A stretch of 47,645 bases of DNA from Lewinellaceae bacterium. Lineage in GTDB: Bacteria > Bacteroidota > Bacteroidia > Chitinophagales > Saprospiraceae. The stretch lies in contig CANJPT010000018.1 of assembly GCA_947476195.1 (NCBI GenBank), positions 1 through 47,645 of the forward strand, in the 5' to 3' direction. Below are positions 1 through 6,964 of this stretch, one piece after another. The notes beneath the pieces are model-generated. The model worked only from the letters and a program-made list of their open reading frames with translations. It searched no databases and had not been told where the DNA came from. Every line of letters begins with the position of its first letter. The first letter of the stretch is position 1. The translations under genes were made by a program, and so were the position numbers.

Positions 1-427
1 CTTCATCCACCATCACCTCCTCCAAAGGTTTCAATGTTCCAAACAGCCCTTTGGCCTCGATCGCGTCTTTAAATCGACTGATCCGGGACAATGCCTGCGC
101 TTCGAGGATTATTTTCGCAAAAATCGGAAGCGTGCATGCCTTTGTGTGGTAATGGCCTATGTTGGCTTCTGCTTCGCTGATCCCTTCCAGAAAAAAGTCT
201 ACTTCGTTCCCGTTGGCTGTTTCAACCATCAGTGCATATTCCGCTTTCATTCCGTCCTGCCTTTCCCGATGAGATTTCTGTCCCTTCTGAAAGTAGAAGT
301 CTTGTTGGTCAAGGTTGTTCAATTTATCCTGCAGAATCAGAATGTCTCGCAGCAAGCCTTGAACGCCGGTAGTGGAAACTTTATCGGTGAGCAAGGGCAA
401 GATTCGGTCAAAGTAGATTTTTGACAT
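1..427 (-). CDS. Unrecognised protein, N-terminal part (runs off left edge)
   Basis: An open frame starts at ATG 427-425 on the minus strand and stays open without a stop to base 1, giving 142 residues of the N-terminus; the end lies outside the window. The protein begins MSKIYFDRILPLLTDK and is hydrophilic, mixed helical in character, with no signal peptide or membrane segment. Codon use looks like the neighbouring genes, and the frame is much more protein-like than the antisense reading. I do not recognise the family. It is divergent from the sensor kinase at 747, with about 320 bases between the two starts. Confidence 0.6.
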   Translation of the reverse strand, partial: MSKIYFDRILPLLTDKVSTTGVQGLLRDILILQDKLNNLDQQDFYFQKGQKSHRERQDGMKAEYALMVETANGNEVDFFLEGISEAEANIGHYHTKACTLPIFAKIILEAQALSRISRFKDAIEAKGLFGTLKPLEEVMVDE

Positions 428-640
428 GCAAGGTATTTTTTTTGGGGCTTATTAGTCGGGCGTGTTTGAATACAGGCGACTTTGGGTATGTTCGGATATT
501 GAATTTTGGCACTAGTTCCGGCTTCCTCTTTTTCCAGTTCAGGCCAGTCGCTGCAGCGGCCTTTTGATCGCCTTCACTGGACTCCTTCCCTCATTTTCAC
601 GAACAAAGTTAGGCATTCAAAACTGCAGTATTTTGAACAA

Positions 641-700
641 AATAACAAACGGTCGTATGGGCAAACCAACGGTCCTATGGGATAACCAACGGTACAGGTA
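641..700 (-). repeat. Triple 20-bp direct repeat, candidate LytTR operator (array 1)
   Basis: Three direct repeats have the ACGGT core at exactly 649, 669 and 689, a 20-bp period. The 9-base sites are 645-653, 665-673 and 685-693. On the minus strand they read ACCGTTTGT, ACCGTTGGT and ACCGTTGGT. All three fit the LytTR-domain pattern [TA][AC][CA]GTTN[AG][TG]. The last site ends 24 bases before the -7 box at 718, the expected place for an activator touching the -33 region. A LytTR regulator is encoded in the operon downstream, so autoregulation is the simplest inference. Confidence 0.7.
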
Positions 701-717
701 TCCCCATTTTCTCGGCG

Positions 718-725
718 TATCTTTG
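718..725 (+). promoter_or_regulatory. -7 promoter box of the sensor kinase operon
   Basis: TATCTTTG matches the Bacteroidota -7 consensus TAnnTTTG and lies 21 bases before the kinase ATG at 747. No good -33 TTTG is seen at the usual distance; the repeat array ends there instead, which fits an activator-dependent promoter. Confidence 0.55.
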
Positions 726-746: not shown

Positions 747-3620
747 ATGCGCTGTAATTATTCGCTTTTCTTTGTCTTCCCGCTGCTCCTGTTTGCTTCC
801 CTGCAACTGGAGGCGCAGGTCTATTATAAGCCGTATCATTTGTTCAGCATCCGCGATGGACTTGCGCAGCAGCAGGTGCGGGCTTTTTTGGAGGATTCCC
901 GTGGATTCGTCTGGATTGGCACCAATGCCGGGCTTTCTCGTTTCGACGGGCGTAGCCTTCAATCTTATCCTTCCCAGCAGGGTTTTGCCGGCAAACAGGT
1001 TTACGCTATTCTGGAGGCCCTTGATGGGGCCATCTGGTATCGCTCTGCAGATACGGTGTATGCCTTTGATGGTCGCAGGGAACGGACACTGCCTATGACG
1101 AATAGCTTTTGGCAGGCGCAGCCACCGTATCTCTGGCCACTGATCACCCTGGACATTCGCAAACGCCTGGGCCAACGGTATCCGGAGATCCGTGCGCTGG
1201 GGGATTCCTATACTTTGTTTACGGATACGGCTGGCGCAGCCATTGTAATCGACTGGGAAAAAAGACTTTGCCACCGTTTCCTGGATCGTTGTAGCACGAC
1301 GCCGCTGCCTAAAGATTTTCCGCGCATTGGGATTGAGGATTATACCTATTCTTTTTTAATTTGTCATAACAACTATTATACCTGGACGCCCCAGGGTCTC
1401 CAATGTGTGGCCCGATACCTGCCAGGGCCTGATTCGGTGCAGGTATTGCATCCGCTGGCGCCTTCGGTGTTCAACTATAACAACCACGTTGTAAATCATT
1501 TTTGGTACAGGGACGGGAATCAATACCATCGCATTGAATTGGGGAAATTCAACCGTCTGGACAAGATCGTGCTCGACCGTCAGCGCAGGCTGCATATTGC
1601 AACCGACGAAGGGTACGCGGTGATGTACCCCTACGGTCCGGAGTGGGTGGAACTGCCGCAGGCCACTTATCCCTGGTCGGTGCTAACAGACAGCCATGGA
1701 AGTCTTTGGATTGGTTCCAATAAGGACGGGATTGTCCAGTTGTTGCCCGGTAATTCGCATACGATTCTACATCCAATGCCGACGGATGATAATATTCATC
1801 AGATTTTCCCTGGCAAACTCAGCGGACCGGGCGGCGCGATGCTGTTTGGTGGCTACAAGGGCTTTTACCATCTAAAAAAGGGGCAGCCTGTGCTGTTTAA
1901 CCTGAACGAACCAGTTGAGGCCTTGAGCTGGGATGTGCATCGGCAATGTTATTGGGTGGCCGGCACCAGTCTTTACGGCATTGATCCGAGGTTTGAGCGG
2001 GTCGTTCAGACCCTTTCGTTGCCCTCCAAAGTTACCCTTGGAGCCGGACTTTCCGACCTGGAGGTAGCTGCGGATGGCAGCATTTGGGTGGCGGGTCGGG
2101 GCGGCATTTTGCACCTTGGTCCGGATGGGACGGAAAAGCAATTTTATGGGGTGCCCGGGCGTAGCAATTGTTTGTGGATTGATGTAGCCGGGATGCTATG
2201 GATTGGTAGCCAAAAGGGTCTTTTCTTTCTGGATCAGGGTAGCGATCAATTTGTTGCAGCGGCCGGTTATCTGACCAACAATCCGGTGAACAACCTGGTG
2301 CCGCTTCCGGATCATTATCTGGCGGTTGTGACCGATACCGAGCTGCTTTTGCTGGATATTCATCAGCAAGCCACCCCGATTCTGAAGGGATATTGGGCAG
2401 AGAAGAATGGTTTTCAATTGCTTGAAGCTTGCGACAACGGTGCTTGTTTCGATGGGACAAACCTTTGGATTCCGGCTGGGAATGGTATACAGCGGATCAA
2501 CCTGGCGAATCAGATCCTGAAGCCGATGGCCCGACCGGGTCTCCGACTGGAAAGCATCCACAATGAACCGATGGCTTTCTCTCAAATGGCACCGGAGCAA
2601 ATAGTGAAAGGCAATACGGTGGAGGTAGTGCTCAACCTGATCAACCTGAATGCAGGTGATTTTAGTTTGTCGTATTCCCTGAATGGGGGAGAATGGCAAA
2701 AAGCCAAATCTCAGACTACGGTATACGTTGTTGGATTAGAACAGGGCTCCAATACCCTGTTGTTTCGGGCCGAGATTCCGATGATCGCGGCTTCAGAATG
2801 GCCTTATGTTCAGGCGAGTGTTCAGGCAGAATTGCCAATAATGCAGCGCACCTTCATACAATGGTTGTTTTGGGGTGGAGGAATATTGTTGATTGGCTTT
2901 TTTATCAATTCCTGGTTGAAGGAGAAAAAGGAGAAAAAACTCAGGGCATTGCTGCATAAAACCCAATTGAGTACGGTACAAGCTCAATTGAATCCCCATA
3001 TCTTGTTCAATCTATTGAGTTCTTTGCAGAATTCCATCACTAACCGTGACAAGATGGAGGCTTCAGAGCATTTGGTCCGCATTGCCCGGTTGATTCGGGA
3101 GATCCTGGAGCTTTCGATTGCGCCCGCTCCGAACGCCCGTTATCCATTTCCAACCATTTCGTTGCGCCATGAGATTCGCTTTCTCGATAATTATCTGCAA
3201 TTGGAATCGATGCAGCACACGCCCAATTTCAAATATGAGATCAGGAATGAGGTGACCACTGATCCGGAACGTATTTTTATTCCGCCGCTTTTGGTGCAGC
3301 CATTGGCTGAAAATGCGGTGATTCATGGTATCAAGCCTCAAGCCGGGAAGGCCAGTTTTATTCGCATAATTTTTCGGGAAGATGGGGACGATCTGGTCAT
3401 TTCGGTTGAAGATGATGGGGCAGGGCCGTCGGGAGCTTCTGGTGCGCGGTCGGTCTTGTTCAGACATCGATCCAGGGGGGGAGAATTGTTGCAAAAGCGA
3501 TTATATTTGATGGGCAAGCTTGGGTTTCCAGCGAAATGGCTGGTGGAATTAAGGCCGGAGGGTGGGACGGTTGCGGAGATTCGAATTCGGAAGATAGAAG
3601 ACTTGATACAAAAGAACTAA
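747..3620 (+). CDS. Propeller sensor histidine kinase (LytS/His_kinase type)
   Basis: Membrane sensor kinase of 957 residues that should pass phosphate to the LytTR regulator encoded next. A signal peptide (start MRCNYSLFF, end LEAQ) leads into a periplasmic beta-propeller with Reg_prop-like repeats such as DSRGFVWIGTNAGLSRFDG and GSLWIGSNKDGI, then a Y_Y_Y-like Ig domain, one membrane helix near residues 705-724, and a cytoplasmic His_kinase/HATPase pair. The phospho-acceptor is His751 in LNPHILFNLL; Asn856 sits in the N box (PLAENAVIHG) and DDGAGPSG is the G1 box. The start at 747 is chosen because it gives a clean signal peptide just after a promoter box. The ligand cannot be told from sequence. 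Unlike hybrid HTCS regulators, the kinase and regulator are separate proteins. Confidence 0.92.
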   Translation: MRCNYSLFFVFPLLLFASLQLEAQVYYKPYHLFSIRDGLAQQQVRAFLEDSRGFVWIGTNAGLSRFDGRSLQSYPSQQGFAGKQVYAILEALDGAIWYRSADTVYAFDGRRERTLPMTNSFWQAQPPYLWPLITLDIRKRLGQRYPEIRALGDSYTLFTDTAGAAIVIDWEKRLCHRFLDRCSTTPLPKDFPRIGIEDYTYSFLICHNNYYTWTPQGLQCVARYLPGPDSVQVLHPLAPSVFNYNNHVVNHFWYRDGNQYHRIELGKFNRLDKIVLDRQRRLHIATDEGYAVMYPYGPEWVELPQATYPWSVLTDSHGSLWIGSNKDGIVQLLPGNSHTILHPMPTDDNIHQIFPGKLSGPGGAMLFGGYKGFYHLKKGQPVLFNLNEPVEALSWDVHRQCYWVAGTSLYGIDPRFERVVQTLSLPSKVTLGAGLSDLEVAADGSIWVAGRGGILHLGPDGTEKQFYGVPGRSNCLWIDVAGMLWIGSQKGLFFLDQGSDQFVAAAGYLTNNPVNNLVPLPDHYLAVVTDTELLLLDIHQQATPILKGYWAEKNGFQLLEACDNGACFDGTNLWIPAGNGIQRINLANQILKPMARPGLRLESIHNEPMAFSQMAPEQIVKGNTVEVVLNLINLNAGDFSLSYSLNGGEWQKAKSQTTVYVVGLEQGSNTLLFRAEIPMIAASEWPYVQASVQAELPIMQRTFIQWLFWGGGILLIGFFINSWLKEKKEKKLRALLHKTQLSTVQAQLNPHILFNLLSSLQNSITNRDKMEASEHLVRIARLIREILELSIAPAPNARYPFPTISLRHEIRFLDNYLQLESMQHTPNFKYEIRNEVTTDPERIFIPPLLVQPLAENAVIHGIKPQAGKASFIRIIFREDGDDLVISVEDDGAGPSGASGARSVLFRHRSRGGELLQKRLYLMGKLGFPAKWLVELRPEGGTVAEIRIRKIEDLIQKN

Positions 3621-3646
3621 AATTAGCAGACCATATTACTGGATAT

Positions 3647-3696
3647 TTTAGATCCAGACCTATTAGGTTTTTGAAACTTTTAGGTTTGGGTCTAAA
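3647..3696 (+). other. Inverted repeat between kinase and regulator genes
   Basis: Arms of 14 bases at 3647-3660 and 3683-3696 flank a 22-base loop. Two positions are not Watson-Crick matches but become G-U pairs in RNA, so the transcript could form a fully paired 14-bp stem. It lies in the 122-base gap between the two coding regions and has no U-run right after it, so it looks more like a processing or differential-expression hairpin than a terminator. Confidence 0.4.
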
Positions 3697-3742
3697 TCAA
3701 AAAGTTCCAGAAGTATGTATTCAGACACATAAAATCAAAAAA

Positions 3743-4525
3743 ATGCGAGCCATCCTAATCGAAGACAATCCCCAAATCAGGGAACTGATCAAAAGCCTGT
3801 TGGCGATCCATTGTCCCGGCGTGACCGTTGTGGGTGAATCGGAAAGCATCGAAGCGGGCACTGTACTACTCTCTACGGTACCGGCTGATCTTTGGCTACT
3901 CGATATAGAGTTGCAGGATGGGACCGTCTTTGAACTACTGGACCGCCTGAATCCGGCATTGTTTGACAATGTGGGGATGGTCTTTCTGACGGCCTTCAGT
4001 ACCTACGAATATGTGATTCAGGCCCTGCAAAAGTCAGCCGTGGAATATTTGCTCAAGCCCATAGATCCGGAGCAATTGCGGGTGGCGGTGGCTAAAGTGC
4101 AGAAAGAGATTTCAAACAGGAGTTTACGCAATCAGTTGGACGAACTCCGGCGTTTAGTGGCTCGGCCGGAAAGTGTCCCTACCCACATAGAAAAAATTCC
4201 GATTTTTCTTGCCAAAGGCGTGGTCAATTTTCTGACGCTGAGTGATATCTTGTACTTTGAGGGTGAAGACATTCTGACCTTCATCCATAGTGCTGCGGAC
4301 CAAACTATTGTTTCTTCCGTCCGCAACCTTGGGTTTTACAGCGATTTACTCTTAAAGCGTGGCGGCTTTATTCGGGTATCCAAAAAACATTTGGTGAACA
4401 CGATGTATATCGATCGGTTTGATCCGGTAGACGGGTCGGTATATTTGAGCAACGGCGTCGCATTATTGGCAAGCCGGCGGGGTGGTCAGCAATTGTTGGC
4501 GTTTTTCCGGGGGATATTTGAGTGA
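3743..4525 (+). CDS. LytTR-family response regulator
   Basis: DNA-binding response regulator of 260 residues. The receiver domain (about 1-125) has the acidic pair Glu7/Asp8, phospho-acceptor Asp54 in WLLDIELQDG, Thr82 and Lys104 in LLKPIDP. The C-terminal half (about 155-258) is a LytTR DNA-binding domain with typical segments such as LSDILYFEGEDILTFIH and FIRVSKKHLVN. The frame is open further upstream, but ATG 3743 gives the normal receiver start MRAILIEDN and the extension overlaps the kinase end. It follows the propeller kinase and is its likely partner. The two triple-repeat arrays in this window match the known LytTR site pattern and are its predicted targets. Confidence 0.93.
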   Translation: MRAILIEDNPQIRELIKSLLAIHCPGVTVVGESESIEAGTVLLSTVPADLWLLDIELQDGTVFELLDRLNPALFDNVGMVFLTAFSTYEYVIQALQKSAVEYLLKPIDPEQLRVAVAKVQKEISNRSLRNQLDELRRLVARPESVPTHIEKIPIFLAKGVVNFLTLSDILYFEGEDILTFIHSAADQTIVSSVRNLGFYSDLLLKRGGFIRVSKKHLVNTMYIDRFDPVDGSVYLSNGVALLASRRGGQQLLAFFRGIFE

Positions 4526-6465: not shown

Positions 6466-6613
6466 TATGTCAGCATATTGGAAGGTAGCTTCTTTTTCTG
6501 TTGGTTTCTGTACGGAATGGGGTATTTTCTTTTCTGAAGCGATTTTAGGCAGGTCCTTTTTTTTTCATGGTTTTGGCTACGCTTGAAGTTATAAATAAGT
6601 TTTATTTGTAATT

Positions 6614-6657
6614 GGTTAGCACGATCTGAAAATCCCTTTGGGATTTTTAAAAGATGC
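6614..6657 (+). repeat. 44-bp inverted repeat, left copy
   Basis: This copy starts GGTTAGCACGAT and ends AAAAGATGC. It matches the reverse complement of 6789-6832 at 41 of 44 positions. Each copy contains its own short palindrome (AAAATCCC, 3-base loop, GGGATTTTT), so each can fold into a hairpin alone and the two can pair with each other. The arrangement resembles REP/BIME-type elements or a MITE-like unit. Confidence 0.75.
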
Positions 6658-6705
6658 TTGTCATTCCTCAAAAATATGGAATAAAACCATTCTAAAATCA
6701 AAAAA

Positions 6706-6765
6706 AATAACCAACGGTGAAATATCGCAAGCAACGGTTCATTGGGCGAACCAACGGTAATACCC
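6706..6765 (-). repeat. Triple 20-bp direct repeat, candidate LytTR operator (array 2)
   Basis: ACGGT cores lie at 6714, 6734 and 6754, exactly 20 bases apart as in array 1. The 9-base sites are 6710-6718, 6730-6738 and 6750-6758; on the minus strand they read ACCGTTGGT, ACCGTTGCT and ACCGTTGGT. Two fit the LytTR pattern fully and the middle one differs at one position. The orientation relative to the protease (plus strand) is the same as array 1 to the kinase, but the protease promoter box is about 200 bases away, so the target could be the TMTC-like gene or an unrecognised short transcript instead. Confidence 0.65.
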
Positions 6766-6788
6766 CAAAGTGCTTTTGAAACTGTTTA

Positions 6789-6832
6789 GCATCTTTTAAA
6801 AATCCCGAAGGGATTTTGAGTTCGTGCTAACC
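6789..6832 (-). repeat. 44-bp inverted repeat, right copy
   Basis: Reverse complement of the left copy (6614-6657) with three differences; similarity continues weakly for about seven bases past the outer ends (TAATTGG against TAACTGG). The internal palindrome here has a GAA loop. Together the copies bracket the triple repeat array almost symmetrically. Confidence 0.75.
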
Positions 6833-6964
6833 AGTTATGTGTTTTTTTGAAATAACTGTTAACCTGCCAACAATGAAGACCTGGCTATTGTTGAAAAAAA
6901 TCACTTATTTTTGTTAAAATTTTTCGCCTGATAAGTTTGGTCCAAGAAGGTTTCCCAAAGGCCA

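Follow-up and report, generated by a model that had tools for sequence, protein, structure and literature searches.

Kinase-paired LytTR regulators are frequent in Bacteroidota. From other bacteria, YehT is a LytTR regulator that was later renamed BtsR, and the agr promoters P2 and P3 are divergent. In LytTR operators, direct repeats of 9-11 nt are separated by spacers of 10-13 nt (PMC4847170, PMC11347149). In the HdrR and BrsR operons of Streptococcus mutans, two LRS operons with positive autoregulation, the repeats are located 8 bp above the -35 box and read toward the promoter, which by our summation places them 31-32 bp from the -10 box; in the other operons given in the same paper the repeats lie 4-11 bp above the -35 box, mostly 10 (PMC6193735). 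The BrsR site is ACCACTTAT-12 bp-ACCGCTTAT (PMC6193735, Table 2). Three direct repeats of 8 bp with 12-13 bp between them are bound by the LytTR domains of RcoM1 and CoxC, and for CoxC the three repeats overlap the -35 box and represent a repressor site (PMC11347149). The YehT oligonucleotide of Escherichia coli contains ACCGCTTAC...ACCACTCAG (PMC4847170), and AgrA of Staphylococcus aureus acts at agr P2 and P3, one of which serves the operon of the regulator (PMC4227749). Triple LytTR operators, LytTR autoregulation and a LytTR regulator that controls two promoters within one region are already in print. The accessible text of the retrieved papers describes no triple array shared by two promoters at fixed but unequal distances. 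Searches yielded no LytTR operator for Saprospiraceae and nothing on LytTR together with this family, and the papers retrieved for LytTR direct repeats in Bacteroidetes were, judged by title and abstract opening, not on the subject. The two-sided, conserved array layout reported here is new, with related operators known.

Here, we describe an array of three direct repeats between a kinase/LytTR operon and a divergent promoter in a Saprospiraceae genome (224 contigs, 97% complete). The window, i.e. the whole stretch of 47,645 nucleotides that was analysed, contains the following features:

2..427, minus strand: divergent open frame of 142 aa that runs off the contig, ATG 184 nt after the -7 box
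604..611, minus strand: -7 box TAACTTTG of the divergent promoter (CAAAGTTA on the plus strand), TAnnTTTG, 32 bp from the array
644..653, minus strand: repeat unit 3, ACCGTTTGTT, from the pattern scan; the unit nearest the divergent promoter
664..673, minus strand: repeat unit 2, ACCGTTGGTT, from the pattern scan
684..693, minus strand: repeat unit 1, ACCGTTGGTT, from the pattern scan; the unit nearest the kinase promoter
718..725, plus strand: -7 box TATCTTTG of the kinase/LytTR operon, TAnnTTTG, 24 bp from the array
747..3620, plus strand: sensor histidine kinase, Reg_prop propeller and His_kinase PF06580 (Pfam)
3743..4525, plus strand: LytTR response regulator, Response_reg PF00072 and LytTR PF04397 (Pfam)
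6465-5308, minus strand: hydrophobic frame of 385 aa without Pfam match, faced by the away promoter of the second array
6669..6676, minus strand: -7 box TATTTTTG of the second array, TAnnTTTG 32 bp off, reading toward the 6465-5308 frame
6709..6758, minus strand: second array of three units with 20-bp spacing, from the pattern scan

On the minus strand, the array at 644-693 reads ACCGTTGGTT-N10-ACCGTTGGTT-N10-ACCGTTTGTT, i.e. three 10-bp units 20 bp apart with the consensus ACCGTTKGTT. The ACGGT cores on which the initial annotation was built were found at 649-653, 669-673 and 689-693 with a spacing of exactly 20 bp, and the distance of 24 bp that it gave between array and TATCTTTG box is correct. 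All three minus-strand 9-mers also match the recognition pattern quoted there, and with 11 bp between copies they show the spacing of LytTR operators. By sequence, the units resemble LytTR sites, and the array is a predicted operator. The triple arrangement had been called unusual; it has precedents in the sites of RcoM1 and CoxC, which also comprise three direct repeats (PMC11347149), and only four of the seven arrays at orthologous loci have three clear units. The second window array and the divergent -7 box at 604-611 had been overlooked.

With up to three mismatches, a degenerate triple pattern matched twice in the window (644-693 and 6709-6758) versus not once in 20 mononucleotide shuffles. 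The window arrays are not a chance occurrence. A scan of the whole genome for triple sites at 20-bp spacing, as had been suggested, revealed six arrays versus none for a reversed-pattern control: two on contig C18, one each on C1, C117 and C215, and a diverged one on C190. A profile of array and leader, trained on the same six arrays, scored them between E 6e-25 and 6e-20, with E 0.5 for the best match after these.

The -7 box consensus of Bacteroidota is TAnnTTTG at position -12 to -5 (PMC9723704), and boxes of this sigma-A type flank the 644-693 array on both sides. In the reading direction of the repeats (the away side), all six arrays of this genome show a TAnnTTTG box 31-32 bp off, namely TAACTTTG, TATTTTTG, TAAATTTG, TAGGTTTG, TAAATTTG and TAACTTTG; the two n positions vary, as expected for a Bacteroidota -7 box, and the background of TAnnTTTG in the window is 0.0005 per position. 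On the opposite (toward) side, a TAnnTTTG box at 24 bp is found in two of the six (TATCTTTG, at the 644-693 array and at C215). The toward side of C215 also has a TTG at 20 bp, and the C1 array has TGTATTTG there. Since each of the six arrays has a divergent -7 box, the reading in which the array serves the kinase operon only was abandoned.

The same geometry was observed for 13 strict arrays from five genomes of the genus, ten of which have an away box at 31-33 bp and four a toward box at 24 bp. In these ten, the repeats are located directly above the divergent promoter and read in its direction, as in known LytTR operators; the exceptions are both G280 arrays, which have no adjoining TAnnTTTG (one flank is only 74 bp long), and one of three G284 arrays. 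Strict arrays are matches to a strict genus-wide triple pattern only, which excludes 22 of 35 profile hits. Four of the excluded hits belong to kinase loci (G248 C623, G253 C135, G268 C315, G279 C264). The other 18 (G278 C5 and C420; G270 C170; G284 C197, C223 and C225; G280 C72, C77 and C93; G279 C772, C191 and C56; G248 C139; one each in G252, G258 and G260; two in G277) include several with one or two units or possibly due to chance.

The initial annotation had assigned the array to the kinase promoter as an autoregulatory operator. The part of this claim that stands is the LytTR-like appearance of the units and the retention of the array upstream of orthologous kinases; the repeats, however, point away from the operon, and the position matching published LytTR-activated promoters is that of the divergent promoter (31-33 bp), not the kinase side. 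Since the away promoter has HdrR/BrsR geometry, the kinase promoter lies on the far side and the repeats point away from it, the array at 644-693 is probably a divergent operator for the LytTR regulator 3743-4525 which serves two promoters.

The locus resembles the HdrRM and BrsRM LRS operons in having ACC-rich direct repeats above its own promoter and in repeats that read toward a promoter, here the away promoter, about 31-32 bp above its -10 box (PMC6193735). In contrast to the LRS operons described there, which have two repeats and a membrane inhibitor as partner, the 644-693 array has three, its own operon lies on the opposite side of the repeats, and the upstream partner of the regulator is a His_kinase/Reg_prop protein, i.e. 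a propeller histidine kinase. Three direct repeats are shared with RcoM1 and CoxC, but the repeat there is TTCNNGCA / TTNNNGCN as opposed to ACCRYTKGTT here, both are CO-responsive unlike the kinase/regulator pair, and the available text of that paper does not mention a divergent partner (PMC11347149). The YehT elements ACCGCTTAC and ACCACTCAG resemble the units ACCGCTTGTT / ACCACTTGTT of two genomes of the genus (G270, G278), but YehT differs in having two repeats, another host and other targets (PMC4847170). AgrA is similar in that a LytTR regulator controls two divergent promoters, one of them for its own operon, and differs in having a separate site per promoter instead of one shared triple array (PMC4227749).

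A kinase 5' end is visible in eight genomes, and the array is present upstream in seven of them: this genome (W1), G248, G253, G268, G270, G278 and G279. The initial annotation had tied its claim to this presence upstream of orthologous operons. The exception is G280, whose kinase 5' region has no array; in G266, the kinase upstream region runs off its contig. TBLASTN with the window kinase gave 40-51% identity in the 5' part at the array-bearing kinase loci; matches next to six of the ten further LytTR loci in this genome were confined to a stretch of no more than ~140 residues with 27-32% identity. Four weak profile hits (G248, G253, G268 and G279; E 0.001 to 0.03), located without knowledge of the genes, fall directly upstream of the orthologous kinase. 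Three clear units are present at the kinase loci of this genome, G268, G270 and G278, two clear units and a weak middle one in G248 (ACGGT kept, 7 of 10 positions, counted by hand), and two clear units in G253 and G279. The unit spacing is 20 bp in this genome, G270, G278 and G253 and 21 bp in G268, G279 and G248 (the latter counted by hand).

At all seven array-bearing kinase loci the away box lies 31-33 bp from the first unit, and at five (this genome, G248, G268, G270, G278) the kinase-side box lies exactly 24 bp from the last unit. In G253 this distance is 30 bp (counted by hand) and in G279 34 bp, which, like the restriction to two clear units in these two genomes and the weak middle unit in G248, counts against a divergent operator. 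At all seven loci, the first ATG on the kinase side lies 11-29 nt past the beginning of the box; the kinase mRNA should therefore carry little or no leader. A TTG within 40 bp above the kinase-side -7 box is absent from six of the seven, and G270 has one at 19 bp.

Two genomes deviate further. G280, which harbors one of the two closest orthologs, has good arrays elsewhere and none at the kinase, and this also counts against a divergent operator. In G284, two arrays precede the LytTR gene itself, which has no neighbouring kinase in the frame list of its contig. The closer of the two lacks an away box and shows TATCTTTG 23 bp off in the direction of the LytTR gene; the second one has an away box at 33 bp that reads into a TonB-dependent receptor gene. 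The LytTR ortholog of G284 (L090 7498-8283) carries Asn in place of the presumed phospho-acceptor Asp, a further point against the proposed operator. For G268, G270, G278 and G279, the LytTR gene is on another contig than the kinase 5' end, and so we only infer that they form one operon there; in G270, G278 and G279, the kinase is split into complementary parts between the two contigs. The kinase and LytTR genes overlap or are at most 5 bp apart in G248, G253, G270, G278, G279 and G280.

Orthologs of the regulator (E 1e-57 or better) were detected in ten of 42 genomes of the genus, this genome included; no other listed match is better than E 9e-37. All ten group in one clade (support 0.995) in a tree that omits two of the 11 LytTR loci of this genome, which are without usable frame, and whose other rows are one relative per genome for 30 genomes, this genome included. 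Among the best 80 of 553 matches in named genomes, one relative exceeds 50% identity (a Saprospiraceae MAG contig) and the others reach at most 38%. At E<=0.1, the profile gave 30 hits in nine of the ten ortholog genomes, all except G266; excluding this genome as the training source, 24 hits in eight of nine remain. The non-ortholog genomes gave five hits in four of 32, with about three expected by chance. Strict triple arrays occur in five of the 42 genomes, all five of which carry the ortholog, an overlap with a probability of 252/850,668 = ~3e-4 under the assumption of independent genomes, which is violated because the genomes share ancestry. The reversed-pattern control had no match in 41 of the 42 genomes and 12 matches in G285. 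These counts support the view that array presence tracks the orthologous regulator. The units have drifted: they are ACCGTTGGTT-like in this genome and G280, ACCGCTTGTT/ACCACTTGTT in G270 and G278, and mixed in G284 (ACCACTGGTT, ACCGCTTGTT, ACCGTTGGTT).

Beyond the genus, the strict ACCGTT pattern matched in seven of 248 family genomes, this genome and six others, and the reversed control in five. The six others were rejected as tandem repeats (G046, G168) or single hits with three mismatches (G004, G161, G202, G219). With two mismatches, the degenerate pattern matched in five of 398 family genomes and its reversed control in none; in the 367 genomes outside the genus, only G168 matches, via its tandem repeat. 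This repeat, ~13 palindromic units in tandem, was taken as unrelated. It is located in another genus of the family (L050 3100-3355), with units of 20 bp that are AACCATTGGTT-like palindromes upstream of a 258-aa frame.

For the proposed divergent operator, we infer that in response to a signal phosphorylated regulator molecules would align on the three units, about two helical turns apart, and the array-bound regulator would act on two sigma-A-type promoters. The divergent promoter, with its -7 box 31-33 bp off in the direction of the repeats, would occupy the classical position of LytTR activation, so that the away gene would be activated. The kinase/LytTR promoter, with its -7 box at 24 bp on the opposite side, would be autoregulated via a less usual, back-to-front arrangement, and the five further arrays in the genome would constitute a small regulon. 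This autoregulation is more likely positive, because six of the seven kinase-side promoters lack the TTG and seem to need an activator. The layout provides a motif, a unit spacing, two fixed promoter distances and a candidate regulon of six arrays for one kinase-paired LytTR regulator, and it raises the mechanistic question of how one directional repeat array serves promoters on both sides.

An opposite sign on the kinase side is possible but less probable: by analogy to CoxC, the array would block the polymerase at the 24-bp side and repress the kinase operon while activating the other side. This is a variant of the proposed divergent operator that differs in sign on one side, and the probabilities of the two overlap. 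It would suit the repeats, whose orientation is wrong for LytTR activation of the kinase promoter, and the repressor site of CoxC is likewise made of triple repeats, which overlap the -35 box (PMC11347149). Against it stand the six promoters without TTG, for which an activator is expected, and the end of the array, which lies above the place where we presume the -33 element of the kinase side from usual promoter spacing.

It is unlikely that the array serves divergent promoters alone, with the kinase operon uncontrolled, or that its ligand is another regulator, LytTR or not. The first variant draws on the contrast between the away box at six of six arrays of this genome and the 24-bp TAnnTTTG box at two of six; against it stand the exact distance of 24 bp at five of seven array-bearing kinase loci and that of 23 bp before the G284 LytTR gene. 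Regarding the ligand, the regulator 3743-4525 exceeds the cut-offs of both domains (LytTR 32.7 bits, cut-off 22.6; Response_reg 59.1 bits, cut-off 30.2), but is the weakest of the 11 LytTR matches in the genome, among which adjacency is its sole physical link to the array. On the other hand, array presence follows the ortholog of this very regulator, and none of the ten other LytTR matches is ever located on an array-bearing contig. The regulator 3743-4525 is the predicted ligand of the array. In a search against solved structures, the best 60 of 176 matches fell in the receiver part of the query and gave no help on DNA-contact residues.

That the arrays belong to a mobile or repetitive element is very improbable and was dropped: a stretch of 145 bp around the array is 80% identical between C1 and C117, the similarity in other pairs covers the array and at most ~40 bp more, and several arrays have palindromic repeats of a different type nearby, but the flanks beyond are without match, the distance to TAnnTTTG is fixed, and the array position at the kinase is kept across species.

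Under the proposed divergent operator, the frame 2..427 is the predicted target of the divergent promoter; it has no match in Pfam, PADLOC or NCBIfam. At five of the seven kinase loci (G248, G253, G268, G278, G279), an away frame with a length of at least 60 aa begins at an ATG located 41-50 nt past the first base of the away box; in G270, there is no such frame within 260 nt of the box. The away frames of this genome, G248, G253 and G268 have no Pfam match, that of G279 is HSDR_N-like and that of G278 GmrSD-like, and no two of the examined away frames match each other (BLASTP, E<=0.01). The flanks on both sides are ~73% identical between G270 and G278, with the GmrSD gene present in G278 only, between the away box and a hairpin that is kept in both (hairpin by eye). 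Operator and divergent promoter might thus form a kept expression slot in which the far-side gene is swapped between species and is sometimes nuclease- or defence-like. We regard this as rather doubtful, and the exchange in G278/G270 is a lead only, because it comes from one pair.

At the other arrays, the away promoter of C190 faces a PorP/SprF protein and that of C215 an exonuclease ~700 nt off, beyond palindromic repeats; the away sides of C1 and C117 have no frame of at least 40 aa on their short contig ends. The toward side holds a subtilase with sorting domain at the 6709-6758 array and a glycosyltransferase at C1. The away genes in G284 encode a Kelch/HYR protein and the TonB receptor, and a PKD-domain protein follows the array of G279 C772. 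A shared function was sought among these targets (PorP/SprF, TonB receptor, Kelch/HYR, PKD, glycosyltransferase, exonuclease, GmrSD-like) and not found; surface or secreted proteins recur, for which we do not claim a common function. PADLOC gave hits for five of ten proteins; that of the G279 protein, to Cas4, reaches no better than E 2e-4, and three of the five belong to neighbouring genes that do not adjoin an away promoter. A defence theme among the array neighbours is weak.

Several further observations concern the surroundings of the arrays. G278 (L095 2239-2282) and G270 (L101 4314-4354) have a common site of one to two units beside a frame which we take to be peptide-deformylase-like; on its other side, the two genomes have different genes of restriction type, a PT-DNA HNH endonuclease-like one in G278 and an SspD-like one ~3 kb off in G270. 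In G280 (L089 148-3376), an AbiEii-like frame (PADLOC) is found upstream of an array, and two more frames of this region resemble AbiE proteins by look. A match to the LytTR domain at G000 C13:51196-51459 contains two TAA codons in frame and is a probable decayed gene.

A MITE-like palindromic repeat of the ACTGGACATTTT...AAAATGTCCAGT type is located near several arrays (window 3637-3720, L032 171-265, L033 1596-1691), with a further copy at L049 about 1420-1500 (by eye); one copy sits within the 122 bp that separate the kinase and LytTR genes. The second array is flanked by a 50-bp inverted repeat with 92% identity (6609-6658 and 6788-6837). At 6555-6568 on the minus strand, an ATG is followed by nine A; this frame stops after seven codons, and the neighbouring frame runs on into the hydrophobic 385-aa protein, so phase variation, slippage or an assembly error is possible at this A-run.
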